In this document: in pieces, positions 4,550 through 59,616 of the stretch
How positions within the stretch are numbered: the stretch's first letter is position 1
Layout: every line of letters begins with the position of its first letter
Source of the DNA: [Phialemoniopsis] sp. UDSM-2020
Lineage: Eukaryota; Ascomycota; Sordariomycetes; Thyridiales; Thyridiaceae
Direction: 5' to 3'
Assembly: GCA_018873225.1 (NCBI GenBank)
Contig: JAEILZ010000004.1
Location: 186,001-250,000, forward strand
DNA: 64,000 nucleotides
Program-made: the position numbers and the translations under genes
Notes under the pieces: generated by a model
What the model saw: the letters and a program-made list of their open reading frames with translations, nothing else
What the model was told of the DNA's origin: nothing
Database searches by the model: none

Positions 4550-5983
4550 TTAGTCTGGTGACACCCCCGCCGAGCTGTTCCCAGTACTGACTTGTTTCTG
4601 CAATCTTCTCTTCCGGCGCGTGGCAGCGAGTTTTTGTGCCATGGAGTAGGAAGGTGGCGACGCGGATTCACAAAAGCGCCAGAAAGACTCTGCTTTGCGG
4701 AGGTGGCGTTCCTTGGGTGCGAATATGCCCATGAAGAAGACCTGAACCTTCAAATGAACAAAACAGTGGTTCTCCAACGGCAGAATCTTGTCCACAATAT
4801 CGCATATACTGTCGGCGACCAGTGCAGCTGCTTCGTCCGTCTCCTTGACACTATCTGGGTGCAGATAGTCGAGGGCAACGTAGAAAGCTGCGTATCTCCA
4901 CGCATCTTGCAACAGAAGCATCTCATTATCCGGGCTATGGCTGACCTTGAGCAGTTGAGTACATATGCGATGGTACGCCTGATGTGGGGAGGCTGTCGTG
5001 TAACCCTGAGCAATCTCGACATAGAGCCTAAAGGTATCCTGCGCGCATCCTACGAGTTCGAACAACGTCGGTTCCATGTCTCTGCGGTGGAAGTCATCGA
5101 AGATTAGATGTCGGTCTTGATGAATCACCACTCCCATGACATCGAACCACAGGAGCAATGAGACGGCTTGCTTTAAGCCAGGTGTTGTCGAATACAACTG
5201 TGACAGTGTTTCAAAGTCTTGACAATGAAGGTCAAGCAGTGCCTTCGCGCCAGATAGATGACGAGCCCACCTGCCGAATGGTCCCTCGCGCACGTCGAGA
5301 AACGCCAATGTCGTCATTCCAAAGATGGCAAGGATATCGCTTTCTTGTACAGCTTGATTCAGTCCTTGCAGAGCCCTGGAATACAGCAGGTGCTTATCGA
5401 GTGCGTGGTGGGAGCTGCTGCTTTCTCGCAGACGCTGACTGATGTGGTCCCATGCGAAGTGCCAGACGCCAGCAACACCTCCGGGGTCGTCATCGTCAGG
5501 AGCAAGTCCAACATGGGGATTTCGTGCGACTCTTGCTTGGGCGTACTTTGAGGTAAAATAGTGCAGGTAGTCGGCCAGGTTAGAGGTCCAATTAATAGGA
5601 CTATGTTCGACGCTCATCCGCGATGAAATTAAAGAAATTGGAGAATTCTGTTCAACGCAAAGATCTGCTGTGCTCGTGCTGCTTGTTGCCTCGACGCCTT
5701 CATCAATGTTCGCCTCGGACACCCCGGCGGAGGCCAAGATGCCATTATTTGACGTCGTCACGGCTGTTGAATCCGCGTTGGTGGCAGCATCCGCTGCCCA
5801 GCGAACTCGTATGGCAAATCCAGGGCATATCAGGTCATCGCGACGACACTGGCCACACGAAGGTCGGTTGACGTCGCACTTGATTCCTCTCTCCTGACAC
5901 GTGGAGCAGTCTCGGTCGCGTCGTCTGCCCCGAGGCTTTCCCTTTCTGCGTTTTCCGCTCGCGCTACTGGTATCGAGACTCAT
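4550..5983 (-). CDS. Zn2Cys6 transcription factor with fungal-specific domain 2
   Basis: Single exon, 477 aa from the ATG at 5983; two codons upstream the frame stays open but has only a TTG. A basic N-terminus (GKRRKGKPRGRRRDRD) leads into the binuclear zinc cluster C26-x2-C29-x6-C36-x6-C43-x2-C46-x6-C53. A Ser/Thr-rich linker follows, then a helical Fungal_trans_2-type region from about residue 140 (DYLHYFTSKYAQARVARNPH) through GRWARHLSGAKALLDL and LLWFDVMG. Such proteins bind CGG/CCG triplets and regulate nearby catabolic genes. It is divergent from the amidase across 432 bp that contain a CCG tandem array at 6202-6300, so local control of the amidase is likely. Confidence 0.9.
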   Translation of the reverse strand: MSLDTSSASGKRRKGKPRGRRRDRDCSTCQERGIKCDVNRPSCGQCRRDDLICPGFAIRVRWAADAATNADSTAVTTSNNGILASAGVSEANIDEGVEATSSTSTADLCVEQNSPISLISSRMSVEHSPINWTSNLADYLHYFTSKYAQARVARNPHVGLAPDDDDPGGVAGVWHFAWDHISQRLRESSSSHHALDKHLLYSRALQGLNQAVQESDILAIFGMTTLAFLDVREGPFGRWARHLSGAKALLDLHCQDFETLSQLYSTTPGLKQAVSLLLWFDVMGVVIHQDRHLIFDDFHRRDMEPTLFELVGCAQDTFRLYVEIAQGYTTASPHQAYHRICTQLLKVSHSPDNEMLLLQDAWRYAAFYVALDYLHPDSVKETDEAAALVADSICDIVDKILPLENHCFVHLKVQVFFMGIFAPKERHLRKAESFWRFCESASPPSYSMAQKLAATRRKRRLQKQVSTGNSSAGVSPD

Positions 5984-6201
5984 GGCCAAGGGGGTGATGC
6001 AAACACGGTAGATTGCTTTCCTGATTGGGGTGACGAATCCTCCCTTTCATATTTCGGAGCACAGATTGATGCGGCTCCTCGCGGTCTTTTACGAGCTTTC
6101 CCCGCATTGATAAGAGTAACGCGATGTTCCAAACACAGGAAAGGAAAGAGATCTAATGCACGATTTGATTGGTCCGATAGTGAAGGATTACGTTAGTGAT
6201 T

Positions 6202-6300: not shown

Positions 6301-6415
6301 TATATCTACATGTAGACCGGCACTGTTATTGAAGTCAGTGCAAGTGTTCGTGTAGCCCATTAAGATACGTCTCTCTTTTAGCAGCTCAACAAACACATTG
6401 CAGCAGCAGCACATC

Positions 6416-8122
6416 ATGACTGTACCAAACTACCGCGAGGTTGCAGCCATTGCGCAAAGCCGCCGCAACACCAAAATAGCGGCGTACTATAATCCCCCGG
6501 AAGCCGATGAAGCTTCATTACCAAACAACCTCACCGAATACGCACTCAATTCGGGTTACTACACACCTGAAGAGCGGACCATCATAGAGACGGAGGCAGA
6601 GACTATACTCCGGAATATCGCCAACGGGGAATGGACCTCACTCAAGGTCACAAAAGCTTTCTGCAAGGCCTCAGCATACGCGCAGAAACTCACCAATTGT
6701 ATCACCGAGGTTCTCTACGATGAAGCACATGCGCGTGCCCAATACCTTGATGACTACTTCGCCAAGAATGGCAGGACTATTGGGCCATTACATGGGCTGC
6801 CAATATCGTTAAAGGATTGTTTCATCGTACCGCCTCATCCGGCTTCAATTGGAATGTCGAACTGGGCAAACGAGGCAACAGACAAGGAACAGGTTACTGT
6901 AACTATGCTGCGAGAGCTTGGAGCCGTCTTTTACGTCAAGACTAATACCCCGACAGCCATGAAGATGGCCGAGACAATCAATAATGTGTGGGGTGAGACA
7001 CGAAATGCTCTTCATAAACATCTCACACCTGGAGGTTCTTCTGGCGGAGAAGGCACCCTTATATCCTTCAAGGGATCACCTCTAGGAGTCGGTACCGACA
7101 TTGGCGGCAGCATCAGGATCCCGGCTGCTCAGGGTTTCCAGTACGGCCTAAAGCCTTCCGTTGGCAGGTTTCCTGCCTATGGCGGTAGAACCGGCGTAAC
7201 TGGGCAGGAGTTTCTTGTTGCGGTTAATGGTCCAATGTCGAGGTCATTAAAGTCACTCCAGATCTACTCGGAAGCTCTACTTTCGGAGCACTCTGCGCCA
7301 TGGACCCGTGATTACAAATGCGTACCGCTCCCATGGAAGAAGAACGTTATTCAACCACCGGGGAGAAAGCTGCGACTTGGTCTAATCGGCAACAACGACG
7401 GATCTGTTCACTGTCACCCACCGGTAGAACGTGCGCTGGATCTCACTGCTCAGAAGCTCAAGGCTGCTGGACATACCATCATTCCATGGACGCCGAAAGA
7501 CCATGATGTTATCAACAAAAATCTGGTGGAAGCATTTTTCAAGCTCGGTGGTGCCGCTATCATCAATGACATCAAGCCATACGGAGAGCCTATCTTCCCG
7601 TGCATGAAAGCCTACGAGGTTGCCGCAGAGGCTGAAGATATCGGCGTTACTGAAATTCGTGAAATGATTCTCAAGCGGGACGAGCTACAGCAAGCATACC
7701 TAGAGTACTGGATGACTGGAGCACCAGACGGCCAGCCTCTAGATGGTATCGTTATGGCAACCGCCCCTTGTGCGACGCCTCGACTACAAGGCACGCAAGA
7801 TAACTTTTATGTTGGCTACACAGGGCTGTGGAACTATATTGGTGAGTGGTCTATGTCTTGCCTTCCGTGTGATTGTCATCTAATGGTTATAGACTTTTCT
7901 GTCTGCACCTTCCCTGTACTTTTTGCCGATAAGGTGCTGGACAAACCCCGAGACATGAAGTCTTTTAGACCGCTGTCGGAACTCGACGGCAGGATTCAGG
8001 CAGACTACGACGCAGAGTTCTATCATGGGGCTCCTGTTGCGCTACAGTGCGTAGGAAAGCGGCTAGAGGAAGAGAAGGTCCTCGAGATGACGGAACTGAT
8101 TGAACAGGCTCTGAAGGCTTAG
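6416..8122 (+). CDS. Amidase (amidase-signature family)
   Basis: Exons 6416-7841 and 7893-8122; 551 aa. Amidase-signature fold with the Lys-Ser-Ser triad in place: K133 in LPISLKDCF, S208 in GGSSGGEG and nucleophile S232 in GTDIGGSIRIP. The spacing of 75 and 24 residues is the family norm. It hydrolyses a carboxamide to acid and ammonia; the general acetamidase/FAAH-like fungal clade is cytosolic. The 51-nt intron (GTGAGT...TTATAG) is a multiple of three with no stop, so the frame reads through it, but splicing restores the family reading NYIDFSVCTFPVLF. Start: the ATG at 6416; the open frame to the left has no ATG. Probably regulated by the divergent Zn2Cys6 gene through the tandem array. 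Confidence 0.9.
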   Translation: MTVPNYREVAAIAQSRRNTKIAAYYNPPEADEASLPNNLTEYALNSGYYTPEERTIIETEAETILRNIANGEWTSLKVTKAFCKASAYAQKLTNCITEVLYDEAHARAQYLDDYFAKNGRTIGPLHGLPISLKDCFIVPPHPASIGMSNWANEATDKEQVTVTMLRELGAVFYVKTNTPTAMKMAETINNVWGETRNALHKHLTPGGSSGGEGTLISFKGSPLGVGTDIGGSIRIPAAQGFQYGLKPSVGRFPAYGGRTGVTGQEFLVAVNGPMSRSLKSLQIYSEALLSEHSAPWTRDYKCVPLPWKKNVIQPPGRKLRLGLIGNNDGSVHCHPPVERALDLTAQKLKAAGHTIIPWTPKDHDVINKNLVEAFFKLGGAAIINDIKPYGEPIFPCMKAYEVAAEAEDIGVTEIREMILKRDELQQAYLEYWMTGAPDGQPLDGIVMATAPCATPRLQGTQDNFYVGYTGLWNYIGEWSMSCLPCDCHLMVIDFSVCTFPVLFADKVLDKPRDMKSFRPLSELDGRIQADYDAEFYHGAPVALQCVGKRLEEEKVLEMTELIEQALKA

Positions 8123-15380: not shown

Positions 15381-16152
15381 GAAGTCTGGCTCTGATGCTG
15401 GCACTCCAAGCGGATTGCGGAGCCAGACGCTGTACCATTCAAACCAGATGCAAATGTATAAGCCGCCCTTAGACTTCATTCAGGAGTGGCCCGAACGCAC
15501 AATAGGCTGCACATAATATAGTGGTATTATAGGATCCTATGTCTCGTCCATCTGCCAAAGATCAATCGAAGGTCGACGTTACGTTCAGGCCCATTCACTT
15601 TGTGGTACTCGCACAAGCCGCTCATGTTCTCTGAATGCTGGCTAGCTCACTGCAAGCTAAACACACCTAAGCAAAGTCTGGCGTACACTTGCAACCAGTG
15701 ACGAGCCATGAACACCAGGAGATAGCAAGTCATCATCACAAATCACCGCTGCGATAGCAGTAAAAGGCTTTCTATCCATTAATCAGTGAGTGAGTGATGC
15801 ATGGAGGCACTGTGGGTCATGTCATGCTTTGCTCCAGAAAGCTTGTCCAGAGCTTAGTGCCATTAGGGTTCAACCTGCCTGTGTTCCCAGACACTATGTC
15901 GAGATTTAGCAAGGCGCCTCTACCGGTCTCACATGGTGATAGGTGACGAGAAGCCTCAGCGCGCACGCACTTCATAAGTATAGCATAATTGACTCACTAC
16001 CTCACTCCACAACTATATAAAATCTCAAGATTCCTCGTTCCTAAATACGTCGGAGACCCAGGTATGCAAGCTCACAAAACATCAACCAAAAGACATCATT
16101 GCAATCCACGATCCAGCCAGACACAGTTTATTTTGTCATCACTCGGCCTATC
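15381..16152. other. Intergenic, AT-rich tract begins
   Basis: No gene recognised. TATATAAAA at 16014-16022 is the likely TATA box of the cysteine-module gene, 139 bp before its ATG. Confidence 0.55.
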
Positions 16153-16701
16153 ATGTCAGCACACACAAAAACGTGCAGTTGCGACCAGTGCGGTGGCTGC
16201 CGCGCTCCGGTCGACGCAACGCAAACACTTTGCGCCTTCTGCCGTGGAAGACGATGCTTGATAGTCTGCACCTGCGATTGCGGCTGCAAAAGTACGATAG
16301 CGGGCGAGGCGAGCAGAAAGGCGGGAAAATGCTGGTATTGCCGCACCAACCACAGAAATTGCGACTGCGCAGTCTGCGGATGCACCAAACCGATCGCCGC
16401 CAAAAAGCGGGAAACCAAGTGTTATAAGTGCCAGCGACAACCGGAATGCCGCGATGGTACTGCTGCAAAGGAAGCCAGTGCGAGCTCCTCTGGTGACTAC
16501 ATCTCCAGTACCAAGGCTGGAGACTCCGGGGATGGCGATGTGAGCACTGGGTACACTAGCTCGACAGCCAGCGGTCTCTTTGCAGTCGACGGCAAAACAT
16601 CGCTATGCCGGTGCCCCAAGGTAGAATGCGCCTGCATCACTCCGGTCGAGCCGGCTGGTTCGACCTGCAATCTATGCATTGAGAATAGTCATATGTATTG
16701 A
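16153..16701 (+). CDS. Cysteine-module protein A (unrecognised family)
   Basis: Single exon, 182 aa, ATG at 16153 (the open frame to the left has only a TTG). I do not recognise the family. 26 Cys in four tandem modules of the form C-x-C-x(1-4)-C-x-C-x(9-14)-C-x2-C-x(4-6)-C. Module 1 is C8,10,13,16,27,30,35; module 2 is C39,41,43,45,60,63, followed by C70; module 3 is C70,72,75,77,90,93,99. A Ser/Gly/Thr-rich linker (about 103-148) precedes a final six-Cys module. No signal peptide, so probably cytosolic or nuclear. CxxC and CxC pairs suggest structural zinc or copper binding; this is inference. Paralogues B, C and D follow downstream, each with its own TATA box. It is not a Zn2Cys6 or ring-type pattern I can name. 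Confidence 0.75.
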   Translation: MSAHTKTCSCDQCGGCRAPVDATQTLCAFCRGRRCLIVCTCDCGCKSTIAGEASRKAGKCWYCRTNHRNCDCAVCGCTKPIAAKKRETKCYKCQRQPECRDGTAAKEASASSSGDYISSTKAGDSGDGDVSTGYTSSTASGLFAVDGKTSLCRCPKVECACITPVEPAGSTCNLCIENSHMY

Positions 16702-16867
16702 CTAGGAGGCTTCTCAAACCCGAATCCAACGAGTTGACTTCTGCAACCGCCTTGGTCATATTTAAAAGGTCCACAATAGGATAGTCTTAATCGAACTGTC
16801 TGTCCAAATGCACTGTATATTCACCACGGAAAGGTCTCCGTGTAATGAGCAAGGTCAGCAACATTGG

Positions 16868-17083
16868 TTACGTTAAGTGTCGTCAACTAGACTCTGTAGT
16901 TTGTGCAAGGTGGGCTATCTGACCACATCGGTCTCTATACAGGCCGGTGCAATAGCAAGGGAAACTTACCAAGAACAGCGTCTGAACAGTTTTGGAGATC
17001 CTGCTTCTATAACAATTGATGAGGCAGGAGACGGACAATGTACGAAGGTAGATAGAACAAGCATTCCATCAAATCATTCTTAA
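16868..17083 (+). pseudogene. Possible degenerate trace of a cysteine-module gene
   Basis: An open stretch without an ATG begins with RLCSLCKVGYL, matching the CxxC-x4-C end of a module with the last Cys replaced by Tyr. It continues into a Ser/Ala/Gly-rich linker and one more Cys. Too short to be sure. Confidence 0.25.
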
Positions 17084-17164
17084 CTAAAACGCATCAGAAT
17101 GTGTTTCGAGTCGGCTACCAGGCGCTTTCAGTATGACCATTTCAATAGATGCGAATAGATTCAC

Positions 17165-17401
17165 TTGATATCTTCATATATTTGTATTGGCGGTCGATTT
17201 ACAAGCTCCTGTGTGATTTCCAGCCTAACTCACTACAACTATAAAGTCATGACACTAGAAGCGGGACATTGTGATCGGAAATGTTATGGATGCAACATAG
17301 GCAGGTGTGTACTCAGTAGTGAGTGTGATCTATATTTCAAATCGTCATTCAGTGGGCGAATCACCTGTAACTGCACCAAGGATGTAAGACCCATGTCATG
17401 A
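17165..17401 (+). pseudogene. Relic of a cysteine-module gene between A and B
   Basis: 78-codon open stretch with no ATG start. It reads Y-N-Y-K-V then GHCDRKCYGCNIGRC, matching the C-x-C ... C-x2-C-x4-C module, followed by a linker FSGRITCNC like YFPGIQCQC of protein B and then a stop. The two Tyr where the family has Cys fit C-to-T decay. Interpreted as a truncated, unstarted copy of one and a half modules. Confidence 0.5.
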
Positions 17402-17534
17402 GCGAATTTTCGCATATAAGTCAACACAATAATACACAAAAGGCGTTGACACATGTTGGTCTGCAACACACTATTAATGCAATGAATCCGAGTACTGTGC
17501 CATTATAGCTAGCTGGAGGAAGGCTAGGACAATC

Positions 17535-17542
17535 TATATAAA
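17535..17542 (+). promoter_or_regulatory. TATA box of cysteine-module gene B
   Basis: TATATAAA, 118 bp before the ATG at 17660. A similar box precedes A (16014), the dead copy C (18855) and D (20032). Confidence 0.55.
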
Positions 17543-17659
17543 CTCTTGACCCTACCGAGCGGATATGGTTGATTTACTGCCTGGCAAAGAGGAAAATCGA
17601 AGAGACTCTGACAAAGCATCACTCACGTATTACAGTCGAGAAAACAATTCCGCTTGACA

Positions 17660-18247
17660 ATGTCCGCCCGTGCAAGCTCCTCGCGTGCCACCAACAGCCA
17701 GAACGATGGCGAGAAAGGCAAAAAAAGCCGCAAGCGGTACGGTCACTTCAATCACACATGCGCCTGCAGCGGCTGCGACTGCCCGATCAAAGTTCGAACT
17801 CGCACCGAAGTGTGCAGGCGATGCCGCCACCAATGTGGAGAAGGATACACTGAATGCGAATGCACTCGTTGCGTTGGCTGTACTACCCAGGTCAAAATAA
17901 GCAATTCCGGACAGCCTTCGATATGTTTTGACTGCAAGGCGAACAGGTGTGAAGCGTCTGAGATCACCAGCACCTACTTCCCGGGCATCCAGTGTCAATG
18001 CAGCTGTGGCTGCCGGGGCATGCTCTCAGACGTCGGTGTCTGTCTCCTTTGCCAAAACGGCGCCTGTATTGGTGTTAGGGCCCGGCCCGAGGACATCTTG
18101 AGCACCGTTCAAGGTCAGGTTGGGCAGCCGCAGATAGCTGACACTTTTCAAGGCTTGTGCGCATGTGTATGCGCCTGCCAGTCTCCCGTCGTCAATGTAG
18201 GCGACGCTTGCTACTTCTGCCGCTTGGGTGGGTGTCAACAACAGTAG
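17660..18247 (+). CDS. Cysteine-module protein B (unrecognised family)
   Basis: Single exon, 195 aa, ATG at 17660. A Lys/Arg-rich leader (GEKGKKSRKRYGHFNH) could act as a nuclear localisation or nucleic-acid contact. It precedes exactly four seven-Cys modules, 28 Cys in all. They start at about residue 34 (CACSGCDC...CRRCRHQC), 67 (CECTRCVGC...CFDCKANRC), 111 (CQCSCGC...CLLCQNGAC) and 168 (CACVCACQ...CYFCRLGGC). No signal peptide and no membrane segment. Same architecture as A with a different linker. Gene C downstream has the same 588-nt length and aligns module by module but is inactivated. Function unknown; metal binding is the simplest guess. Codon use and intronless structure resemble A. 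Confidence 0.75.
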   Translation: MSARASSSRATNSQNDGEKGKKSRKRYGHFNHTCACSGCDCPIKVRTRTEVCRRCRHQCGEGYTECECTRCVGCTTQVKISNSGQPSICFDCKANRCEASEITSTYFPGIQCQCSCGCRGMLSDVGVCLLCQNGACIGVRARPEDILSTVQGQVGQPQIADTFQGLCACVCACQSPVVNVGDACYFCRLGGCQQQ

Positions 18248-18958
18248 GCAATCATAAAAATGGCGATCCACCATGGGAAGCATGTAATTATAACCAGCAA
18301 ATGACAGATCCTGGGGTTGGAAGATGGGAGATAAGAGGAAGCATTATCAGTCAGGGGTTTTTATTTGATCCTTTGGGGTGAGATTCGGAATTGGACTTGT
18401 TTCAGATATGCTAAATCATTGAATTGGTTACACTATCCCTCGTGAGCCTTCGTTAGACCGATTTGCAAACCCAAGTCATAAAATATAAGTCTAAAAGCTA
18501 TAGATGGATATGAAAGTTCAAGTGTGTATTCAATATTGTGGCCTATCTTCAGGGCTATATTGGGTCCATGATATCACCGCCATAATGGACAGGCTGTAAA
18601 TTAAAGTACTGTCAAAGAAATAAGCATCAGAACGTATAGAGCTACATCAGTGAATATAGATTCTCATTGTATAACTGCGAAAGTCTTGGCTCTGTGGACA
18701 AGCCGATTGGAGTGAATTCGTGCCTGAGCCGTAAACTAATACATCTTTCATGTTAGATGTGAGCATTCAAAGGCATGTATCCAAATACTACTATACAAGT
18801 GACTGGCTAGACCACAGCCTTATTATACGCGAATATTGACTTGACCAAAATAGGTATATATAGAGATGTCTTCTCCTTCTAAAGACCTGGTATCAGGCCT
18901 TTTATATTCTGACCTCTTGAAGATTCTCCTTCCTAGAGCAGGTTGTGCTCTGTTCGAT
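18248..18958. other. AT-rich intergenic
   Basis: No gene seen. Rich in TA dinucleotides; contains TATATATAG at 18855-18863, about 100 bp before the dead copy C. Confidence 0.5.
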
Positions 18959-18961
18959 ATG

Positions 18962-19549
18962 ATGTCTAGCAGCATACAGCCCTCAAACTCTTAGAAGCAT
19001 GGTAAGCATAAGGGTAAAAAAGCTTACAAGCAGGACAATAAGAAAGATCGCAAGCAGGATGAGAAGAAAGAAAGCAAGAAGGACGGTAAAAAGGATAAGT
19101 CTGGCCCGACTGAGATATGCTGCTGTTGGAACTGCGACTGCTCTCGACTTGCATATGGCACCCGTCAATGTTGCTAATGTTGCGCGGCTGGTAGATACGG
19201 CTTAACTGCGATATGCAAATGTAGTAACTGCGGTGATTGTAAAGCCTTGGTGCTGAAGGTTTCTGGTTAACTATCGATATGTGCGCGATACCAGGAAGGT
19301 CAGTGTCTAGAGATCGAAAGCAGTACGTTTACCGGCTACACATATGCTTACTTCTATGGCTACCGGGTCATCCTCGAAACCCCAGGAGAGTATCCACTGT
19401 ATCAGAATAGCACATACACCGCCCACAGACTCCTATCCATCCCACTCAGCGATGGATTTCGCTGTACATACCCTTATTACTACACCAACACAGTCGCCGT
19501 CATAGACACTGCATGCAGACACTACCGTTCTGGCTCGTGCCGGTTTTAG
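18962..19549 (+). pseudogene. RIP-inactivated cysteine-module paralogue C
   Basis: One frame of 588 nt from ATG 18962 to TAG 19549, exactly the length of intact gene B, with three internal stops: TAG at 18992 and TAA after codons reading CC and VSG. A Lys/Asp-rich leader (KQDNKKDRKQDEKKESKK) is followed by four modules in register with B. About thirteen positions that are Cys in the family are Tyr here (TGC/TGT to TAC/TAT), seven of them in module 3 (YAYFYGYR, EYPLYQNSTY) and four in module 4. TG to TA is CpA to TpA on the other strand, and CAG to TAG or CAA to TAA is the same change on this strand. That is the RIP pattern. No frameshift is present. Confidence 0.8.
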
Positions 19550-20099
19550 CAAGTCTAGAACGGACTAAGACTCACCGGAGATGATGACATAAGATGGGAG
19601 ATTAGTATAACGAGTTGACATACATATGCGATCAGATGCTTAGGCCGCCAGCCTGTAGGATTCTAGGCATCATATTTTAGACGCCTTAGCTCAACTGATG
19701 GATCAGCGACAATAGGGTTCCGTAGGGACTCATAGAGGCGAAAACAATTCTCAACTTAATTCTAAACATATTAATTAATTTCATTATAATACGACTCTTT
19801 AGTATCAAGTCTAACATTCATTGAACACAGGCATAACCCAACTGAATGAAGTGTATACATAGGCCCAGAACGTGTTTCCCTCAATATCCGGGATATAACA
19901 AATACTTCTGCACCAGTCCTTTCCTTAAGGGGAAACTCTTTAAGCCGTTTGTAGTCTATCCAGTCAAAGATCAGCAAAGAACAAACAATAGGATTTCACT
20001 ACATAAATACCTTGCCTCCCAGATCTAGAATTATAAAAGGCCAAAAGAGAAAAAGATTCCTAAACCTCAATCCCTGACTCCACCATCCCAAAATCAGCA
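19550..20099. other. AT-rich intergenic
   Basis: No gene recognised. Contains TATAAAAG at 20032-20039, the likely TATA box of gene D. Confidence 0.5.
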
Positions 20100-20342
20100 A
20101 TGCCCTCCGGATATATCGAGAAGGCTAAGGCAGCCGAGGCTTCCAAGTCCGCAGAATCCAAAACAGATACACCCAAAGACACCATAAGAAAGCGCATAGA
20201 CAAAATTAAAGACTACAATAACCTCCAGCAGTGCGCGTGCAAGAAGTACAAGTGCGTCATCCCGCCTTCCGGGGGCCACAAAGTATGCATTATATATCGA
20301 AGGTCCGGCAAGCATCAGAAGCCTCGAGTTAAAACCGAGTGA
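20100..20342 (+). CDS. Cysteine-module protein D, short member
   Basis: Single exon, 80 aa, ATG at 20100, TATA box 61-68 bp upstream. A Lys/Ala/Asp-rich leader of about 45 residues (AKAAEASKSAESKTDTPKDT) leads into one module, CACKKYKC...HKVCIIYRRSGKH. Two of the expected Cys are Tyr, the same change seen in dead copy C, so this may be a partly mutated or shortened copy rather than a working gene. A long frame on the opposite strand (20094-20675) covers it but shows no family signature. Confidence 0.45.
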   Translation: MPSGYIEKAKAAEASKSAESKTDTPKDTIRKRIDKIKDYNNLQQCACKKYKCVIPPSGGHKVCIIYRRSGKHQKPRVKTE

Positions 20343-20741: not shown

Positions 20742-22221
20742 CTATAACAGCTTCAGGCTCTTCCACAGAAAATTCATCCCACTAACAAGAGCCGTCAGTC
20801 CAGTATACAACACCAAAACGCCGTACCCACTGCCAAAGCCCCCGATGACCTTGCCTTGCCACGGCATACCCCTAGTCAGTGCATCGCTCAGCGGTCCAGA
20901 CACAATGTTGCCCAGACCTCTGCCTACACAGAGATGGCCCTGCACCATGGCCGGATCGGCATAGTCGTGGCCAGATTCTAAGCCTCTCTGCACCATCTCC
21001 CTCATAATACCAGGCCAGATGGCTGCCCACGAGCCAGCAAATAAACCATATAGAACACAGAAGAGGTACAAAACGGGCAGCGAGGATGTCAATCCCCAGA
21101 CTAGAAGCGCAGATGCAGCTGCGCCGGTGGCCGATATAAGCATGCACGTGGTGACCGGAAGCCTATCGCTAAGCGAGCCCATGGTCACTAGACCAACTGT
21201 AGTCGCCAGGTTAACCAGCATGATTGTCAACGCTGACAAGAAGCGAGACGTGCCAAAGGTCGTGCGAGCGTAGAGCGGGAGGTAGATGCTGGGCAGGAAG
21301 TAGCCGGTGGCTTGAACAACGTTAGCCAGCTGGTGAAATACGAATAACTTGGACATGGCGAAACGCATGTTGAACGGCCTGTTGTACGTGTTGGCGGAGA
21401 TAGGCAGTCTGGGCTTGACGAAGAGGGCCAACGGGGCTGATGATGCGAAAAGAACGCCGGCGCAGATGCGCAGAGCTGTCTGAAGGCCAAATTTCCCCAG
21501 CAGCGCCTCAATGAGGAGGGGCAGGACAACGCCTCCGACTCCGGCAGCACTCCAGGCGAGCCCGTAAGCCAGCCCTTTGCGTCTGACGAACCATTCATTG
21601 ATGTACAAGGTGGAGGGACAGTACGCTACGCAGCCGCCGATCCCGTACATGATGCCCTGGGTTGCGATGAGCTGAGGGACTCTCGTGCAGAAGGAGCTCA
21701 TGGCAAGGGCTAGAGAAGCAATGCAGAGGCCCGCAAGCGTGAACCATCGGGCCTGGCGCGGGTAGAGGCGGCAGACCATCAGCACGAAGGGCGTGCCGAT
21801 GTACATGAGACCCTGCCAACACACATGTCAGAACGAAAACGGAGACAGTTCACGATTATCGTGGTTCACCGAGGTTGTAGTCCCGATGGCGGCAATGCTG
21901 CCCGAGGCCGCAAAAGGCTCATGACTGCTGTAGTAGTCTTGAAAGACGCCGAAAGAGAACCCGAAACCTGAACAAGCTGTCAATGGCCATGTCTTGTCAA
22001 GGGCGTATGCGGCAAAGAGTGGACCCACCAAAGGTGACAGCTTCGACGCCCCATGCGGCAGCCAAGCACAACCACGCATCCTTGCCGGTGTCTACAGGAG
22101 GCAGCGAGAACTCCGTGGCCGGTGGCTGTGGACTCTGGCTATTAGGCTCGAGCTGGTGCTCCTCAATGCCACGCAAGGGTGGAGCATCGAGATTGCGGAG
22201 TTCAGTCGGGCTCTGAGTCAT
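20742..22221 (-). CDS. MFS transporter, monocarboxylate-porter-like
   Basis: Three exons, 22221-22029, 21967-21870, 21812-20742; 453 aa, all junctions in frame. A Pro/Glu-rich N-terminus of about 45 residues precedes KDAWLCLAAAWGVEAVTFGFGFSFGVFQDYY, the standard first helix and signature of fungal MCT-like carriers. YIGTPF, GIGGCVAYCPSTLYINEWFVRRKGLAYGLAWSAAGVGGVVLP and about 12 membrane segments follow. Fungal members move monocarboxylates, riboflavin or unknown metabolites at the plasma membrane. It is in tandem with the Zn2Cys6 gene upstream. No TTCCGCGGAA palindrome was seen in its promoter, so its membership of the downstream regulon is open. Confidence 0.88.
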
Positions 22222-30077: not shown

Positions 30078-31715
30078 CTACGGAAGCTTTGTCAGTTGTG
30101 AGTATTTGGTAGTCATCTGTACATCCTCAATCGGAGCCGTCAGGAGCGGCAGAGGCGTTTCGGGATGAGGGTTCGGAACCCAGTTCCCATGGACCTGGTT
30201 CTTCGTCTGGAAAGGCAGCAATGCCACGGCGATGGGCTTGGAAAAGTCTTTGCAATCAAGGATCATCAATTCGCCCTTGGGTGAAGAATCCCTTTGAGTG
30301 TAGAAGATGATGTAGCCGTCTCCTTCCTCGCAATCAGCGCTCCGTGGAATGTAGGCTGGCTCAGCGACGCTGCCGTCCTTGGCGGCATAGAATACCGACT
30401 TTTCGCCAGTCTCGGTATTCAGCTTGATGATTGCGTTGAACCGCGGCGAGGGCGACCCGTCCGGGGTCATCATGCCAGTCATGTACACAATATTCGTCTT
30501 GCGACCTGTCATGCGCTCGTCGAAAATGGGGAAGTCAAAGATGCCGTGCAGAAGCGTCTCTGGTGGCGGCAGTGCACTGCCATCGGGCTTGGCAAGATCC
30601 AGAGTCCATCGCTTCCAGTCGCCGCTGGGTTTGCCTTGCGGGCTATAACCCTCCGGATTGAAGAACTCAAAGACATTGAAGGAGACGAGATGACTCTCGA
30701 GCTTCAGTATCCCACCATCTTCCTCCCAGGCGTTTCCCGTGTGTATAATCAGGCCATGTGGAGCTGTGTACTTGCGCATCTCCCCGGGCTTCCAGTCTGG
30801 ATGGGCAGGTGTAGTGGCATAGCGTGGCGTGACGAGAAATTCGGATGGCTGATCTGGGACAAAGCGCCAATAGTCGCCGCCAGCCTTCATCACCTCGTCA
30901 GAATTGACAGCGAACGGCATGTTGGAGAGGATGATCCAGTTGTCTGTGATCCACGCATCGTGAGGCCAGCCACACTTGTCCTGCTTGAACCAATGCTCGT
31001 TGGAGATGCGGCCCTGGGGATCAATCGAGTAGGTGCAAATATCTCGAGTGCTGAGCCCCTTTGCCGAGTAGCTCCAGGTGACGAGCTCGTTCTTGTGCGG
31101 GTCGACTTTGGGATGAGCCGCGAAAGTCTTGGCTGCGACCTGACCGCCGTATGGATCGGGGCCTCTAGTTTCAAGAGTGTCCGGGTCCAGAGCGTAGGGC
31201 AGTCCACGCTCTGCCAGAGCAAGCACGTTGCCTCCCCAGTAGATGATGTTCGTGTTGCCAGTTGTGTCGTTCGCAAGTCGAACGCAAGGGTGATTATCGA
31301 AAGGGTTTCGATAGCGCCCAAAAAGGCGACGACCGGCTTTGCGTTCTAGCAGCCATCTCTCTGTATGGACATATTTGATCTTCATGGATATCTTGCCGTC
31401 TTGAACGCGGAATGCGCAGACGTGCCCGTCCCCATCGACAAAAGGGATGCCTTCCTGCGGGCAGAAATGAGGGTCAACTAGGATGCGATACCACGTCCCA
31501 CTGATGTCTTTGGGGAGGTCACCAAAGACAATGACGTCGTCTAGCTCGCATTCAAATCGCCCTTGAGGCGTGGCGTCGGAGCGGTAGTAGTGCTCCCATG
31601 GAGAATGAAGGCCGAAATGGCGCTCATGTTGACTTGATTTCTCTTCCGAATCCGAGATTGGCACTGACGGGACTTTCAGCACCGTCTGCATGACTTCTGA
31701 CCCAAGTGTTGCCAT
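30078..31715 (-). CDS. Carotenoid/stilbene cleavage dioxygenase (RPE65 family)
   Basis: Single exon, 545 aa, ATG at 31715. The four iron-binding His of the seven-bladed propeller family are visible: H201 (KTFAAHPKVD), H252 (GWPHDAWIT), H325 (IIHTGNAWE) and H509 (QVHGNWVP). FVDGDGHVCAFR near the N-terminus is the family's substrate-tunnel strand. No membrane patch or signal peptide. The spacing is close to that of fungal resveratrol-cleaving oxygenases and lignostilbene dioxygenases, which split an aryl-alkene double bond into two aldehydes; carotenoid cleavage cannot be excluded. A perfect TTCCGCGGAA lies 167 bp upstream, linking it to the neighbouring genes. Confidence 0.9.
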   Translation of the reverse strand: MATLGSEVMQTVLKVPSVPISDSEEKSSQHERHFGLHSPWEHYYRSDATPQGRFECELDDVIVFGDLPKDISGTWYRILVDPHFCPQEGIPFVDGDGHVCAFRVQDGKISMKIKYVHTERWLLERKAGRRLFGRYRNPFDNHPCVRLANDTTGNTNIIYWGGNVLALAERGLPYALDPDTLETRGPDPYGGQVAAKTFAAHPKVDPHKNELVTWSYSAKGLSTRDICTYSIDPQGRISNEHWFKQDKCGWPHDAWITDNWIILSNMPFAVNSDEVMKAGGDYWRFVPDQPSEFLVTPRYATTPAHPDWKPGEMRKYTAPHGLIIHTGNAWEEDGGILKLESHLVSFNVFEFFNPEGYSPQGKPSGDWKRWTLDLAKPDGSALPPPETLLHGIFDFPIFDERMTGRKTNIVYMTGMMTPDGSPSPRFNAIIKLNTETGEKSVFYAAKDGSVAEPAYIPRSADCEEGDGYIIFYTQRDSSPKGELMILDCKDFSKPIAVALLPFQTKNQVHGNWVPNPHPETPLPLLTAPIEDVQMTTKYSQLTKLP

Positions 31716-43762: not shown

Positions 43763-45048
43763 TGGGTTTGGATCTGCGAAAACGCGCGGAGGAGCTGAAT
43801 AGAAACCAAATCTTGTAAAGGAGGCATTTGGAGACTTTCACTATTCAAATGTTGGCTGTGAGTTCCTTGACTTCGCCTCATGAAGCTCAATGCTTTTCCA
43901 GGTAAATAGGTACGAAGCAACACAATAATAGCCTTCGAAATGCCGGGGCGGAAGAGCTAACATGGTGCCATTGTGACCGGGTGCAGACAGACGGAGTCCG
44001 AGCCGGGCCGACGCTGAGCTCGGAGCAAAGCAACCTCAGCTCCGATCCCGCCATATGACTAATAATATTTGGTCTCGACCAAGTTTCAGGTTTTGTCACT
44101 TTTGTCAACAAACATCAGACGAAACAACACACCGCCAGCTCAGACCGAAAGAGAGGCAAATTAAACAGTAAAAAGGCTCATCGAGTCATCGCCCGGTCCT
44201 CCTGCTCCTACCTACAGAAACCTTGCAGCTCCTTATTTTAGCCTACTGCTGATGGGAAATGATTGATCATCCGTCCATCACCATCGCGCAACACGCGCGC
44301 GTTGGCTGCTGCTCCAGCCCAGCCCAACCATCGAGTCCGGCCTAGCTTCCAGAGCTGCGCGCGTGCCCTTCACCGCCGTTTGACACGCCACCGGCTCCAT
44401 GCGACTCGTTTGGTGAGATGATACACCAAGAGCGGAGGCGGTGTGGGGCCAATGAGGGTCGGGCCTTGGCCGCGATGCATGTGGCCAACGGGGATAGGGT
44501 CTCGCAGGGCCCAGCATCTCCAACGACATGCATGAGATCCGTCCACCAGGCGATACGCTAGATCCCCTCTTTTGCCCCTCTTCCGCTCAGCTTCTCTCTC
44601 GCTCCAAGCTTTCGCTGGCAAAAAGCTGGCCACGCTGGCCCGATTTGTCCGTACTTGTCCGTTTGCATGCCTCAGCCAGCTACTGCCGCTGTGCCCGACG
44701 TGGAAAAAGAGGTACGCATGGGTACATGCACGCTTGGATCGGAAGGGGAAACTTGTCCCATGGCGAACATCGGAGTCTGGAACCGGGGGCTGGTAGAGGG
44801 GCAGACGAGAAACCCTTTATCAATCGCCCGTGCCTGCTTCCCCCCGGTCTGATTCACCCCTCCTCGAACAGCTACCGTATTCATCTCTCTTCTCGTTACT
44901 CTCTACTACTACCTTTTGATACCCCAAGTCTTCAAGGCAAGCTCTCGTCTTGTCTACCCACAAACTCAACCCATCTCGCTCGCTGCTTGAACACCTCTTC
45001 AAGCAACAAAGCCGCTCCAGCTTCACTCACAACCCCCGCCAACAAACT
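43763..45048. other. Intergenic, boundary between accessory cluster and core genes
   Basis: No gene recognised. Contains a 7-bp inverted repeat TCCGAGC / GCTCGGA at 43997-44003 and 44018-44024. CT-rich leader before the next ATG, typical of a constitutive fungal promoter. Confidence 0.5.
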
Positions 45049-46096
45049 ATGTCTGCTGCCGTCCTCGTCCCTCTCTCCCAAATCAACCTCAACGGCGGCG
45101 TCCTGCCCCCGAGCGCCATCACACAGCAGCAGTCGCCCCGGCACGGACGGAGCAGGGGCGCCAGCGTCGCCAAGGGCAAGAACTCGCGCGGCCGCGGCTA
45201 CAGCTTGGTCGACGACAGGCAGACGCAGGTCTCCAAGGCGGTGGTCTTTGTGCTCAAGCGCACGGCCCAGGACGGTAAAGAAGAAGAAGGCAGCGACGAT
45301 GGCAAGGTAGTAGCTGATGCCGACGGCTGGGTCGGCGTGGAGGACGTGGTACGTTACATTGCCCAGAGATCATCACCCCCGAGGGGCATCAGAGACTAAC
45401 AGCCCCAAACAGCTCGCACACTCCAAGGTCTCAGCCCTCGGCGTCTCCCTCTCGGAGCTGCGCGACGTCGTCGCCTCGCCCGCCGGCAAGGGCCGCCTGT
45501 CCCTGCGCCAGGCCCCCGGCGCCAAGGACTCGGACGCCGAGAGCCCCGCGGCCTACGAGATCCGCCGGGCCTCGGGCCCGGCCAACGCCGCGCACGAGGT
45601 CCTCTCGAGCCCCTCGCCCGTCTGGCAGCAGATCACCGCCGCCGACGCCGAAGGGCTGCCCGAGTTCGTCGTGCACGAGACGTCGTACCCAAAGTACCAC
45701 CTCATCCTGACGTCGGGCAGCATCAAGCGCGCGGGAGGGCAGCCCTTCCTGTCCTTCAGCCCCGTCGACGACGACCAGACGAGCAGCAGCAAGTCGACCG
45801 CGGACGTGAGCATCTGGATCAACCTCAAGGCGGCCATGGCCGCCAACCCGGAGTCGGTGTGGCGGCGCACCGAGGCCGGCGCCATCGTCACGTCGGACGA
45901 GATCCCCAAGGCGCTGTGGACCAAGGCGGTCGCGCGCCGGGGCGACCTCGGCGTGCTGTTCGAGGACGGCGAGGTGCGCAAGGAGGTGCCCGTCGGCCTG
46001 CGCGGCAAGGGCGCCAAGGCCAAGAAGGGCAAGGGCGTGCTGAAGAGCGGCCGCACCGGCGACGACGACGGCTCCGGCAGCGCCAGCGACGAGTAA
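45049..46096 (+). CDS. Tpt1/KptA-like RNA 2'-phosphotransferase homologue, divergent
   Basis: Exons 45049-45348 and 45413-46096; 327 aa. A low-complexity basic N-terminus (HGRSRGASVAKGKNSRGRGY) precedes QVSKAVVFVLKRTA...DADGWVGVEDVLAH, matching the winged-helix start of tRNA 2'-phosphotransferases. The C-terminal half has HETSYPKYHLILTSGSIKRA and DVSIWINLKAAMAA...TEAGAIVTSDEIP, matching the NAD-binding lobe. Tpt1 removes the splice-junction 2'-phosphate from tRNA. The usual active-site stretches R-H in helix 1, RA-x-QGHS and H-I-H-L are not seen in their normal places, so activity is doubtful. Lys-rich C-terminal tail. GC-rich codons. Confidence 0.7.
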
Positions 46097-46472
46097 AAAG
46101 CGAGCACACACAAGGGACAGGCTCGCGAGTTTCTCTTTTTTTCCATAAGAAAAGGAGCTGACTCTTATGTATATGCGTCCTGCACACACATGTAGTTAGA
46201 TTGGACTAGAGGCCCTTTTTTGCGCTTCTAGTCATTTTGCATCGAGTGCGCCAATCTATCATGATGAATGAGGCTTCGATTACATACTCGACCTCAAAAG
46301 CACCGATTCAGGTTCCACATTGCATTTGTGAAAATGTTATTTCAGGTGATTTGGACGAATAATGTGTGACCTAGACCGAGTGATAGTTGGCTGCCTATCG
46401 CTTGAGCACCTCAACTCCTCCCAGGCACCAAGATCCAATTTCTGACGAGACTCACAGCATCACCACGACAAG
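46097..46472. other. Intergenic
   Basis: 3' flank and promoter spacer; nothing recognised. Confidence 0.5.
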
Positions 46473-47414
46473 ATGAGCGTCAAACAACAACACGCCAGAG
46501 TCCTCCCTCTCCAAGACCCGTCAACTCGATTCAAGCATACCTCATTCATCATGGCTCCAAAGCAAATACCCCAGCCACCCCCACCCTACATCATCCGCCC
46601 AACAATCCCTCACACAAGTACATTCATCCTCCTCCACGGCCTAGGCTCCAACGGCGAGAAATTCGGCAAAGAACTCCTCGAAACAGGCCTCACATCAGCC
46701 GGCCTCGCCCTCCCGCAGATCTTCCCCGGTGCGAAATTCATCTTCCCCACCTCCCGCTGGCGCCGCTCAACGGCCTTCGGCCGCGCCATGCTCACGACGT
46801 GGTTCGACAAGGCGCGCCTCGATGACCCCTCGTACCACAGGGAGATACAGGTCCCCGGGCTGAGCGAGTCGGTGCGGGAGATCATGGCGCTCATCGCGCA
46901 CGAGCGTGACGTGTGCGGGATCGAGGCTAGCAACATCGTGCTGGGAGGCCTGAGCCAGGGTTGCGCGACGGCGGTTTCAGTCCTGCTCTGCCTTGACTAT
47001 GCTATCGGCGGTTTCGTGGGTATGAGCGGGTATCTCCCCTTTTATGAGGACATCAGGGACGCCGTGGCGGAGTCGGACTGTGACGGCGAAGAAGAGAATC
47101 CGTTTGCGAGCGAGGAAGCTGCGGAGGCGCAGGACCCGAGTGTTGGAGCAACGATGTTCGAAAGGGAGCTACTGAGTCTACCTCCGCTTCAAAACGCCGA
47201 TCCCAGTTCAACTGCCCGAGCGACGCCGGTGTTCTTGGGCCACGGCGCCGAGGACGACAAGGTCACTTGCCGTTTGGGCAAGGCCATGGCTGACACCATG
47301 CGGAGTTGTGGCTACCGAGTCGAGTGGAAGTGTTACCCTGGCTTGGGCCACTGGTACAAGATCCCCGATGAGATCGATGAGATCGTTAACTTCATACGGC
47401 CTCTTCTCAGATAA
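46473..47414 (+). CDS. Acyl-protein-thioesterase-like phospholipase/carboxylesterase
   Basis: Single exon, 313 aa from ATG 46473; a second in-frame Met at codon 27 (MAPKQIPQPPPPYI) could be the real start. Alpha/beta hydrolase with FILLHGLGSNGEKFG, nucleophile S161 in VLGGLSQGCATAV, acid in GHGAEDDKVT and His in PGLGHWYKIPDE. FPGAKFIFPTSRWRRSTAF matches the APT1/lysophospholipase lid strand. Members remove palmitate from proteins or hydrolyse lysolipids. An acidic insert (ESDCDGEEENPFASEEAAEA) before the last strands is longer than in APT1. Cytosolic. Confidence 0.88.
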   Translation: MSVKQQHARVLPLQDPSTRFKHTSFIMAPKQIPQPPPPYIIRPTIPHTSTFILLHGLGSNGEKFGKELLETGLTSAGLALPQIFPGAKFIFPTSRWRRSTAFGRAMLTTWFDKARLDDPSYHREIQVPGLSESVREIMALIAHERDVCGIEASNIVLGGLSQGCATAVSVLLCLDYAIGGFVGMSGYLPFYEDIRDAVAESDCDGEEENPFASEEAAEAQDPSVGATMFERELLSLPPLQNADPSSTARATPVFLGHGAEDDKVTCRLGKAMADTMRSCGYRVEWKCYPGLGHWYKIPDEIDEIVNFIRPLLR

Positions 47415-47916
47415 TCCCACCATCATGAACTATAACGTGCAAGAGACTCAAGTTCACTCTCCTAAGAGTACTTCAAGTTGGGGAGCAGAGACTAAATGAT
47501 CCTCACGTAGGTTTTCAGAACTTGATATTCAATTGCTCATCACTGTCATCAACACCTCCCTATTCAGCGCGTCCGCTTCACTACTACCGACAATCATAAA
47601 ATAAAGGGGTATCGACCGTATCACCGCCTCCATCGTAAAAACCAGGTACAGTAGTACACAAGACATCCATCCAAAAATATTCATAAAGAACATCCAGTTG
47701 CATCATAGGCCAGGACACGCCTCGCCTACGATATCAGCGATGCTAGTAGCAATAACTCGCTCTGCCTACTCGGCCACCTGCCAGCGAGGTCTATCCAACC
47801 CAGTTCGGTCCAAGCCAAGCCAATCCCCCCAAGATGCATGCAAGTATGTTTCGTATCGTCGTATCGCTTTAGACAAGAAAAGCAGGTATGAAAAAAGTAC
47901 AGGCAGATCCATTCCA
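47415..47916. other. Intergenic, convergent genes
   Basis: Only short spurious frames. Confidence 0.5.
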
Positions 47917-58171: not shown

Positions 58172-58906
58172 CTAGTACTTGAGCTCCGGCAGCGGCCGGA
58201 TATAATGGCTCGCGCACTGGTAGCCGTAGGGGTTCTTCTCGAGGTACAGCTGGTGGTACTCCTCGGCGTCCCACCATTTTGCGGCGGGCAGCAGCTCCGT
58301 GGCGATCTTGCCGTGCCACCACTGCTCGTTGGCGGCCTTTGTCACCTCGCGCGCGATGCCCTCCTGCTCGGCGTCGTGGTAGAAGATGCCGCTGCGGTAC
58401 TGCGACCCGTAGTCGTTGCCCTGGCGGTCCGGCGTTGTGGGGTCGTGGAACCGGTAGAAGAACTCGACGAGCTGGCGGTAGGTGATCTTCTCTGGGTCGA
58501 AGGTGAGTTGGGCGGCCTCGGCATCTGTTTGTAGTCGTTTGTTAGCATAACCTCGAAAGGTTAAAAAGGGGGGAAAGGGGGATTGGGTAGGAAGGAACGT
58601 ACGGCCAGTCTCGCCGGAGCACACGGCGCGGTAGCTCGGGTTGTTCACGTCACCGCCGATGTACCCGACGCGCGCGTCGTACAGGCCCTTCTCCGCGCCG
58701 CCGAAGTGCTTGCGGAACTCGTGCTCGACGCCCCAGAAGCAGCCCGCGGCGAAGGTGGCGCGCTGGGCGCCGGAGGGAATGGAAGCGGCGGCCGAGTCGG
58801 AGGGGTTGAGGGACAGGCCGCGCGCCGAGGTGGTGAAGGGGCGGGCGAGGCGGTGGATGAAGGAGGGCATGGTGCCGAAGAAGGCGGCCGAGGAGTAGTG
58901 TGCCAT
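58172..58906 (-). CDS. msrA: Peptide methionine sulfoxide reductase A
   Basis: Exons 58906-58603 and 58524-58172; 218 aa. Catalytic Cys in [16 protein letters not shown] (C56), then [56 protein letters not shown] and a C-terminal [14 protein letters not shown] whose Cys can resolve the sulfenic acid. The 78-nt intron falls inside the ETGHAEA motif and its removal restores it. The first 40-45 residues ([16 protein letters not shown]) look like a mitochondrial leader, though a start at the second Met (codon 13) is possible. Reduces methionine-S-sulfoxide in proteins using thioredoxin. Core gene. Confidence 0.93.
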   Translation of the reverse strand: [244 protein letters not shown]

Positions 58907-59616
58907 TACCGCCGAGAGTAGGAGGAGCACGGGTGCGAGCGAGAGGAGGAGAAGGATGGTCGATGTGCTGCGATGCGCCGTGGTGGGAGTAGAAGCCGAG
59001 ATGCCGGGGTTTGAGCGGCGGGGTTGTGATCTGGAGCTTGGATGCGGTAGTGATGGGAATTGGTGAAGGCGGTTCGTGAAGGGTAGACTGCTTGGACTTC
59101 ACAGAGGGACGGTCGATGTCGTTATATACTGATCAATTGCAGGGAAAACAGTCAAGAAGTCGATGTGATGGTTGTGAGTAACGAAAGTCTGGAGGGTAGT
59201 TATGTCGATCCAGGGACGCCTCTTTTTTAGTGGGGTGAATCCCTGACGTTATGCGACAGCGTCGATGATGCGATCAGAATCGCCGCTTTCGGGTATGACA
59301 AATTCTATTCAGTGGCGCAGACTCAGCCTTTGCCCGTCAGCGCAGCCCTATGGAAAGCGATGAGATAAACGAATCCAACGCCTGGTGAGTAGTTTCTTAG
59401 CGTAGCAACATTTCAAATATTTTGAGGCTGTATCATCTCAGAGAGGACAGTTCAGGCTTGTAGTATGTCCGGACTGCCGTGAAGCACCCTGCTAAATTTT
59501 GTGATGAATGATGACGGGAATACGAGTTGTCTCAACAAATAGCCTCGAAATGTAATCACTCGTCATATTTTTGGTAGTCTAAGAACCGTAATCTCTATTT
59601 ACAAAACACCCCCTCT
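58907..59616. other. Intergenic, upstream region of msrA
   Basis: Upstream of msrA and downstream of the dehydrogenase; no feature recognised. Confidence 0.5.

Follow-up and report, generated by a model that had tools for sequence, protein, structure and literature searches.

CXC/Tesmin domains (PF03638) and the pre-SET Zn3Cys9 cluster are CxC-rich, multi-zinc arrangements of cysteines found in intracellular proteins, and the Zn2Cys6 domain (PF00172) holds six cysteines round two metal ions. The family considered here consists of small, cysteine-dense proteins of the fungus [Phialemoniopsis] sp. UDSM-2020, and was noticed as four gene copies, A to D, lying at 16153-20342 of a stretch of 64,000 nucleotides (hereafter, the window). 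Its proteins are built from a repeated module of seven ligand positions, of which the first six would be suited in number by the six cysteines of Zn2Cys6; the Zn2Cys6 spacing is different, however, and the family also departs from such factors in its seven ligands, its tandem modules, and the lack of a Fungal_trans domain and of a Pfam match. CXC/Tesmin and pre-SET clusters likewise differ in spacing and give no Pfam match, and the module described here is standalone and repeated. A further parallel is offered by the fungal heptaCys metallothioneins of the Agaricus AcMT type, which, in the available text of PMC12508003, resemble this family in having seven positions for metal ligands in each unit, pairs of the CxC type, and duplicated genes and domains. 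Unlike them, this family has another spacing, a long loop with an aliphatic residue, a seventh ligand that is either Cys or His, and four or six units per protein.

In the window, direct reading of the frames confirmed four copies on the + strand, which the first-pass annotation had listed as intact (A and B), dead (C), and short (D). Gene A (16153-16701, with the ATG at 16153 and the stop codon at 16699-16701) encodes 182 residues with 26 Cys in four modules, located at 16174-16257, 16267-16353, 16360-16449, and 16606-16692, whose last ligands are Cys, His, Cys, and His, respectively; the fourth is preceded by a Cys-free linker of 52 residues rich in Ser, Thr, Gly, and Asp, and is of a C-terminal type, CxCx4CxCx10CxxCx4H, common to all four genes of the second cluster described below. 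Gene B (17660-18247) encodes 195 residues with exactly 28 Cys, as had been counted, and has a Lys/Arg-rich leader followed by four modules (17759-17836, 17855-17950, 17993-18067, and 18158-18235), each ending in Cys. Copy C (18962-19552), with a Lys-rich leader, is broken by three internal stops (TAG, TAA, and TAA) before the end of the frame, and D (20100-20342) is an open reading frame (ORF) of 80 residues with 4 Cys, consisting of a Lys-rich leader and one degenerate module of the C-terminal type, in which 4 Cys and the final His are retained. C was assigned to the family by alignment with B (31% identity), and D by module shape alone; D is better read as a degenerate remnant than as a short gene.

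A second tandem cluster, G1-G4, was reached by searching the organism's own genome (44.2 Mb in 11 contigs) with A, and lies on another contig, at C10:243917-249073, all on one strand. It comprises four intact, single-frame, and strongly diverged paralogues of 255, 202, 175, and 172 residues with 39, 29, 26, and 26 Cys. In that search A was related to three of the C10 genes at E values from 1.8e-8 to 1.2e-4, and a direct tblastn of B against the C10 stretch gave a match to G4 (E 5e-5); in whole-genome searches B, C, and D returned only themselves. No third cluster was found in own-genome searches with A, B, D, G1-G4, and a reading of C, in which only the best candidates were scored. A weak match to G2 (E 0.33) was seen at C6:719490-719651, in an open frame of 116 residues on contig C6, which also carries the window cluster. 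At the DNA level, blastn gave no similarity between the two clusters. A shared segment of C6 and C10 was considered, as other tblastn hits link C6 at 182-189 and 197-198 kb with C10 at 266-277 kb, and C6 at 251 kb with C10 at 206 kb, but these hits, all at 24-47% identity and without a blastn match, were provisionally taken as dispersed families.

Among the 15 pairs formed by the six intact copies, 80-100% of the Cys columns are kept at an overall identity of 31-47%. Usable rates of nonsynonymous (dN 0.45) and synonymous (dS 0.93) substitution could be obtained for G1 and G2 alone, dS being at least 1.6, and often beyond measure, in all other pairs. These figures indicate that the six intact genes are, by this comparison, old and under selection mainly on the ligands. 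The local duplication, decay, and strong divergence proposed from the window alone are borne out by the relatives in the second cluster, the broken copy C, and the low pairwise identities.

The module follows the order C-x-C-x(1-5)-C-x(1-2)-C-loop-C-x2-C-x(3-5)-[C/H], and a scan found 25 such modules in the six intact genes (A, B, and G1-G4), a 26th, with a spacing of 5 between the third and fourth Cys, being visible by eye in G2. When the seventh ligand was required at x3-x5, 24 strict matches were obtained in 172 kb of six-frame sequence around the two loci, all of them inside the six intact genes, and 20 rounds of 2-mer-block shuffling gave no strict match in any round. The repeated cysteine module formulated in the first-pass annotation is therefore real, but its formula needed two corrections, since the spacing between the third and fourth Cys is 1 or 2 and not always 1, and the last residue is not always Cys, as modules 2 and 4 of A end in His. 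The fourfold repetition claimed for A, B, and C holds for A and B; C keeps four module positions, but 12 of its 28 Cys positions are taken by Tyr. Four residues after C-x2-C (x4), Cys is found in 7 of the 25 modules and His in 9, although less than one His would be expected there from the family's own His frequency (P about 1e-8). Eight of the nine remaining modules carry their last Cys or His at three or five residues, and module 2 of G4 has no last ligand of its own. In the C-terminal module, the last ligand is His in A, G1-G4, and D, and Cys in B. Moreover, 20 of the 25 modules have an aliphatic residue (V, I, L, M, or F) at the fourth position after the fourth Cys, compared with 22% across the loops, and Arg directly follows CxxC in 11 of the 25. 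A Cys-free stretch of 45-53 residues, rich in Ser, Thr, Gly, Ala, and Asp, precedes the last module in A and G1-G4; the corresponding stretch of B has 30 residues and is not of this type.

Cys and His interchange at metal-ligand sites and not at disulfide sites, so that their exchange at a single position supports the metal binding that had been raised as a possibility for the window copies, and it is very likely that the modules bind metal. The conserved aliphatic position suggests, in turn, a small folded core. No signal peptide was found in the six intact genes by hydropathy (first 42 residues, Cys set to 0, highest 12-residue mean of 0.52), no dedicated predictor having been run, in agreement with the earlier claim. 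Taken together, the fixed aliphatic place, the Cys/His exchange, and the absence of a signal peptide agree more closely with folded, intracellular metal modules of the zinc type than with disulfide bonding or an ordinary metallothionein. Each module would provide seven ligands, namely the pairs C-x-C, C-x(1-2)-C, and C-x2-C with a Cys or His at the end, and would most likely fold round two zinc ions with a shared thiolate, Cu(I) being a possible alternative. Three modules, or five in G1, would stand ahead of the C-terminal module, and in A and G1-G4 the C-terminal end would consist of a flexible Ser/Thr-rich linker and the conserved Cys6-His module.

The view of an unrecognised multi-copy family was upheld by the database searches, since neither Pfam nor NCBIfam gave a credible match and PDB returned only hits at chance level (E 0.57 to 3.1). 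The profile search that had been proposed as a check likewise found no credible match to a described domain: Pfam had no match for A or B at E up to 10, and its one hit for the six intact proteins was AAA_18, in a single protein, at E 0.1; NCBIfam had none for the six; PF00172 and metallothionein were without a match at E up to 10 in any of them, the same Pfam library detecting PF00172 at 4553-5989 of the window; and PF03638, RING, LIM, and other described zinc domains gave no credible profile match. A match of D to Swi5 (E 0.001) was rejected, as its 19.6 bits fall below the Pfam cut-off of 22.1 and it lies mostly in the Lys-rich leader. In a set of 5.8 billion proteins, B alone yielded 17 candidates and the six-member alignment 1195, none of them a match at E up to 10; a contig database search with A gave 96 stretches that fitted a pattern and no relative, and viral contigs searched with G3 gave 3 stretches and no relative. 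As a control, the neighbouring gene at 47920-50913 was searched, and of 8000 scored candidates 1323 were hits at E up to 1e-50, the best at 72% and, among the matches listed, the first named ones at 68-70% in the Sordariomycetes Apodospora, Thozetella, and Lasiosphaeris, which indicates that fungi are well represented in the protein set and that the host is probably a Sordariomycete with no near relative there. However, this search requires shared words of five residues and can miss distant relatives, so that lineage restriction of the family is not proven by it. In the literature, no description of this family was found in the titles and abstract starts of the matches listed.

The proteins would probably form a family of small intracellular proteins made of tandem metal-binding modules, perhaps restricted to one lineage, and for the modules a zinc-folded state is favoured, an unfolded metal store being the weaker candidate. 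On this interpretation, the proteins would act as compact, multi-site, zinc-folded binding surfaces or as metal-thiolate reservoirs, and a reservoir, a redox-sensitive switch, and a binding surface are the candidate roles. Against this interpretation, the Cys/His exchange does not specify the metal, the extreme Cys content is also compatible with a metallothionein, and the proteins carry no further domain that would indicate a role. Proteins like metallothioneins, with little fold, whose Cys clusters would serve to store Cu(I), Zn, or Cd or to detoxify them and which would be induced by metal through a promoter element, are a possible though less probable explanation. In the broad sense, the features of a metallothionein are present, with very high Cys content (14-15% in A, B, and G1-G4), repeated CxC motifs, and no signal peptide as judged by hydropathy only, and the tandem modules and genes, together with the TATA-like sequence and palindromic upstream element of the C10 genes, point the same way, as do the gene duplication and domain expansion that the available text of PMC12508003 describes for fungal metallothioneins. 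Nevertheless, the Cys spacings of the family do not follow the heptaCys motif given there (C-x4-C-x-C-x2,3-C-x-C-x4-C-x-C), Pfam gave no metallothionein match at E up to 10, and a fold is argued for by the fixed His, the aromatic residues, and the aliphatic position that the modules conserve.

The suggestion that the proteins bind nucleic acid, for instance as nuclear regulators in which zinc modules follow Lys-rich leaders, did not fare as well and is unlikely. Only the basic leaders of B, C, and D point that way among the copies, with the Arg that follows CxxC as a further feature of the modules in its favour, whereas a basic leader is missing from A, G3, and G4, those of G1 (MPRR) and G2 (MPKK) are short, A and G1-G4 are overall only slightly basic, and no DNA-binding Pfam match was found with a library that names the Zn2Cys6 factor of the window. 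Small secreted proteins rich in disulfides would be consistent with the cysteine content, the divergence, the tandem arrangement, and a position fairly close to a chromosome end, contig C6 starting with telomere repeats that place the window cluster about 202 kb from it. This explanation is very improbable, however, given that by hydropathy none of the six intact genes has a hydrophobic N-terminal stretch, one ligand position alternates between Cys and His, G1 and G2 have odd Cys totals, and CxC is a poor spacing for disulfides.

All four C10 genes carry upstream the palindrome TCACTG-N5-YAGTGA, within -226 to -164 of the ATG, and the distance from the palindrome to the next TATA-like sequence is exactly 18 bp in each of the four promoters. 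Identity among these promoters is 71-88% in the palindrome element, compared with 15-52% in the preceding 60 bp and 35-67% in the following 60 bp. The exact palindrome occurs at seven places in the 44 Mb genome, four of which are the C10 promoters, and the three others (on C1, C4, and C9) are about as many as a control with the pattern written backwards gives across the genome (three forward and two reverse sites). By eye, no module was seen in 3 kb around each of these three. The site at C9:509891 is likewise followed after a short distance by a TATA-like sequence, which may be chance, and sits between two genes that are presumably GH76-like and GH18-like. Against control of the whole family through this element, no site resembling the palindrome stands out from random expectation in the promoters of A-D, and the window contains no exact palindrome and three sites with two mismatches, compared with 3.31 expected. 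The presence of the palindrome at all C10 promoters and its absence beyond chance at A-D therefore point to shared control of the C10 cluster only, for which the sequence evidence is strong. A dimeric transcription factor, bound at this fixed distance ahead of the TATA-like sequence, would probably switch on the C10 genes jointly. Nothing on such a palindromic element was met in the titles of the literature matches listed. TATA-like sequences, recognised by consensus only, do precede each window copy, as had been stated: on the + strand at 16014-16022, 139 bp before the ATG of A, and at 17535-17543, 125 bp before that of B; 107 bp upstream of C; and 68 bp upstream of D, with a weaker one at 99 bp.

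The decay of copy C has a marked direction. In a plain BLOSUM62 alignment of C with B, the 28 Cys positions of B are filled in C by Cys (16) or Tyr (12) and by no other residue, and Tyr occupies only 5 of the 144 other aligned positions (Fisher P 1.2e-7); that all 12 losses lead to Tyr has a P of 2e-4 even if half of Cys changes are supposed to yield Tyr. Moreover, a strand-asymmetric scarcity of TpG extends from 19301 to 20342, that is, from the second half of C through D, where the ratio of TpG to CpA on the + strand is 34 to 95, compared with 99 to 92 in A and B (P 6e-6, with bounds chosen after the counts had been seen). Such strand-biased clusters are the expected output of repeat-induced point mutation (RIP), as is the replacement of Cys by Tyr, and according to the available text of PMC7296669 about 91.9% of RIP clusters are purely C-to-T or purely G-to-A. 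Duplicated genes inactivated by RIP, in the accessible parts of PMC7296669 and PMC2621366, share with this tract changes of the C:G-to-T:A kind, an apparent strand bias, and the TAA and TAG stops. The C-D tract differs from them in being weak by the usual indices and in a Cys-rich make-up that shows the damage as a change of Cys to Tyr.

Several observations weigh against RIP and would favour C as a random pseudogene, its excess of Tyr being due to chance or a trait of C itself. In the C-D stretch TpA/ApT is only about 1.0; at 19001-20000 it is about 1.02 and the substrate index about 1.09, compared with the thresholds of above 2 and below 0.7, respectively, in the available text of PMC7296669. 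Between B and C, the RIP context accompanies only 20 of 51 G-to-A differences (after T) and 11 of the 31 that run from C to T, counts in which B stands as a distant paralogue and not as the ancestor of C; no DNA-similar donor copy exists in the genome, the search returning only the query itself, although later divergence of the copies may account for this; the skew in the first half of C does not reach significance (P 0.15); and other parts of the window, such as 46401 and 58701, show TG/CA skews of equal strength. Random decay is improbable nonetheless, given the Cys losses, all to Tyr, and the scarcity of TpG, and the genome bears other RIP-like signs: the first 2 kb of C10 (C10:1-2000) is heavily RIP-like, with a guanine plus cytosine (GC) fraction of 0.17, CpA and TpG nearly absent, and a substrate index of 0.10, and the cytosine methyltransferase family has five matches in it, as possible candidates for the RIP enzyme. 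RIP, probably old, is quite likely to have caused the decay of C. In the favoured account, local duplication would make new copies, of which those still alike would be hit by RIP, with Cys codons turned into Tyr codons, and those that had diverged would survive. No publication was found that brings RIP and CpA together with the wording "cysteine to tyrosine".

Other features of the window complete the picture. Between A and B, a short Cys-rich ORF (17249-17401, + strand; 50 residues, 7 Cys) contains CxxCx4C and no full module, and might possibly be a relic of a fifth, decayed copy. The AT-rich island in which the copies were said to lie is mostly intergenic, as the gaps between copies have 39-43% GC but the coding sequences of A and B have 56-57%, the whole window having 53%. 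Strong TG/CA strand skews are also present at 44801-47900 and 58201-60700, and GC reaches 62% around 45-47 kb. The neighbouring genes encode the Zn2Cys6 factor (4553-5989), an amidase (6398-8122), an MFS transporter (20742-21824), a cytochrome P450 (25385-26053), and a protein of the RPE65/carotenoid-oxygenase type (30078-31715), none of them evidently linked to the family.

A bolder interpretation, which can be advanced only tentatively, is that of a new domain, a binuclear module of seven ligands (six Cys and a seventh that is Cys or His) built round a small hydrophobic core, used in tandem and confined to one fungal lineage, with a dedicated palindrome regulon and with duplication limited by RIP. 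Since all Cys codons begin with the RIP-prone TG, a family of this kind could not have expanded by recent duplicates, and this block would explain the strong divergence of every surviving tandem paralogue.

An intracellular, Cys-dense family without a profile match is unusual, and the exchange of Cys and His at a single site provides a direct and testable claim of metal coordination, while the promoter palindrome offers a route to the inducer of the C10 genes. The Cys-to-Tyr damage looks like genome defence striking a Cys-rich family hardest and, therefore, bears on the expansion of Cys-rich families, such as metallothioneins and effectors, in fungi with RIP.

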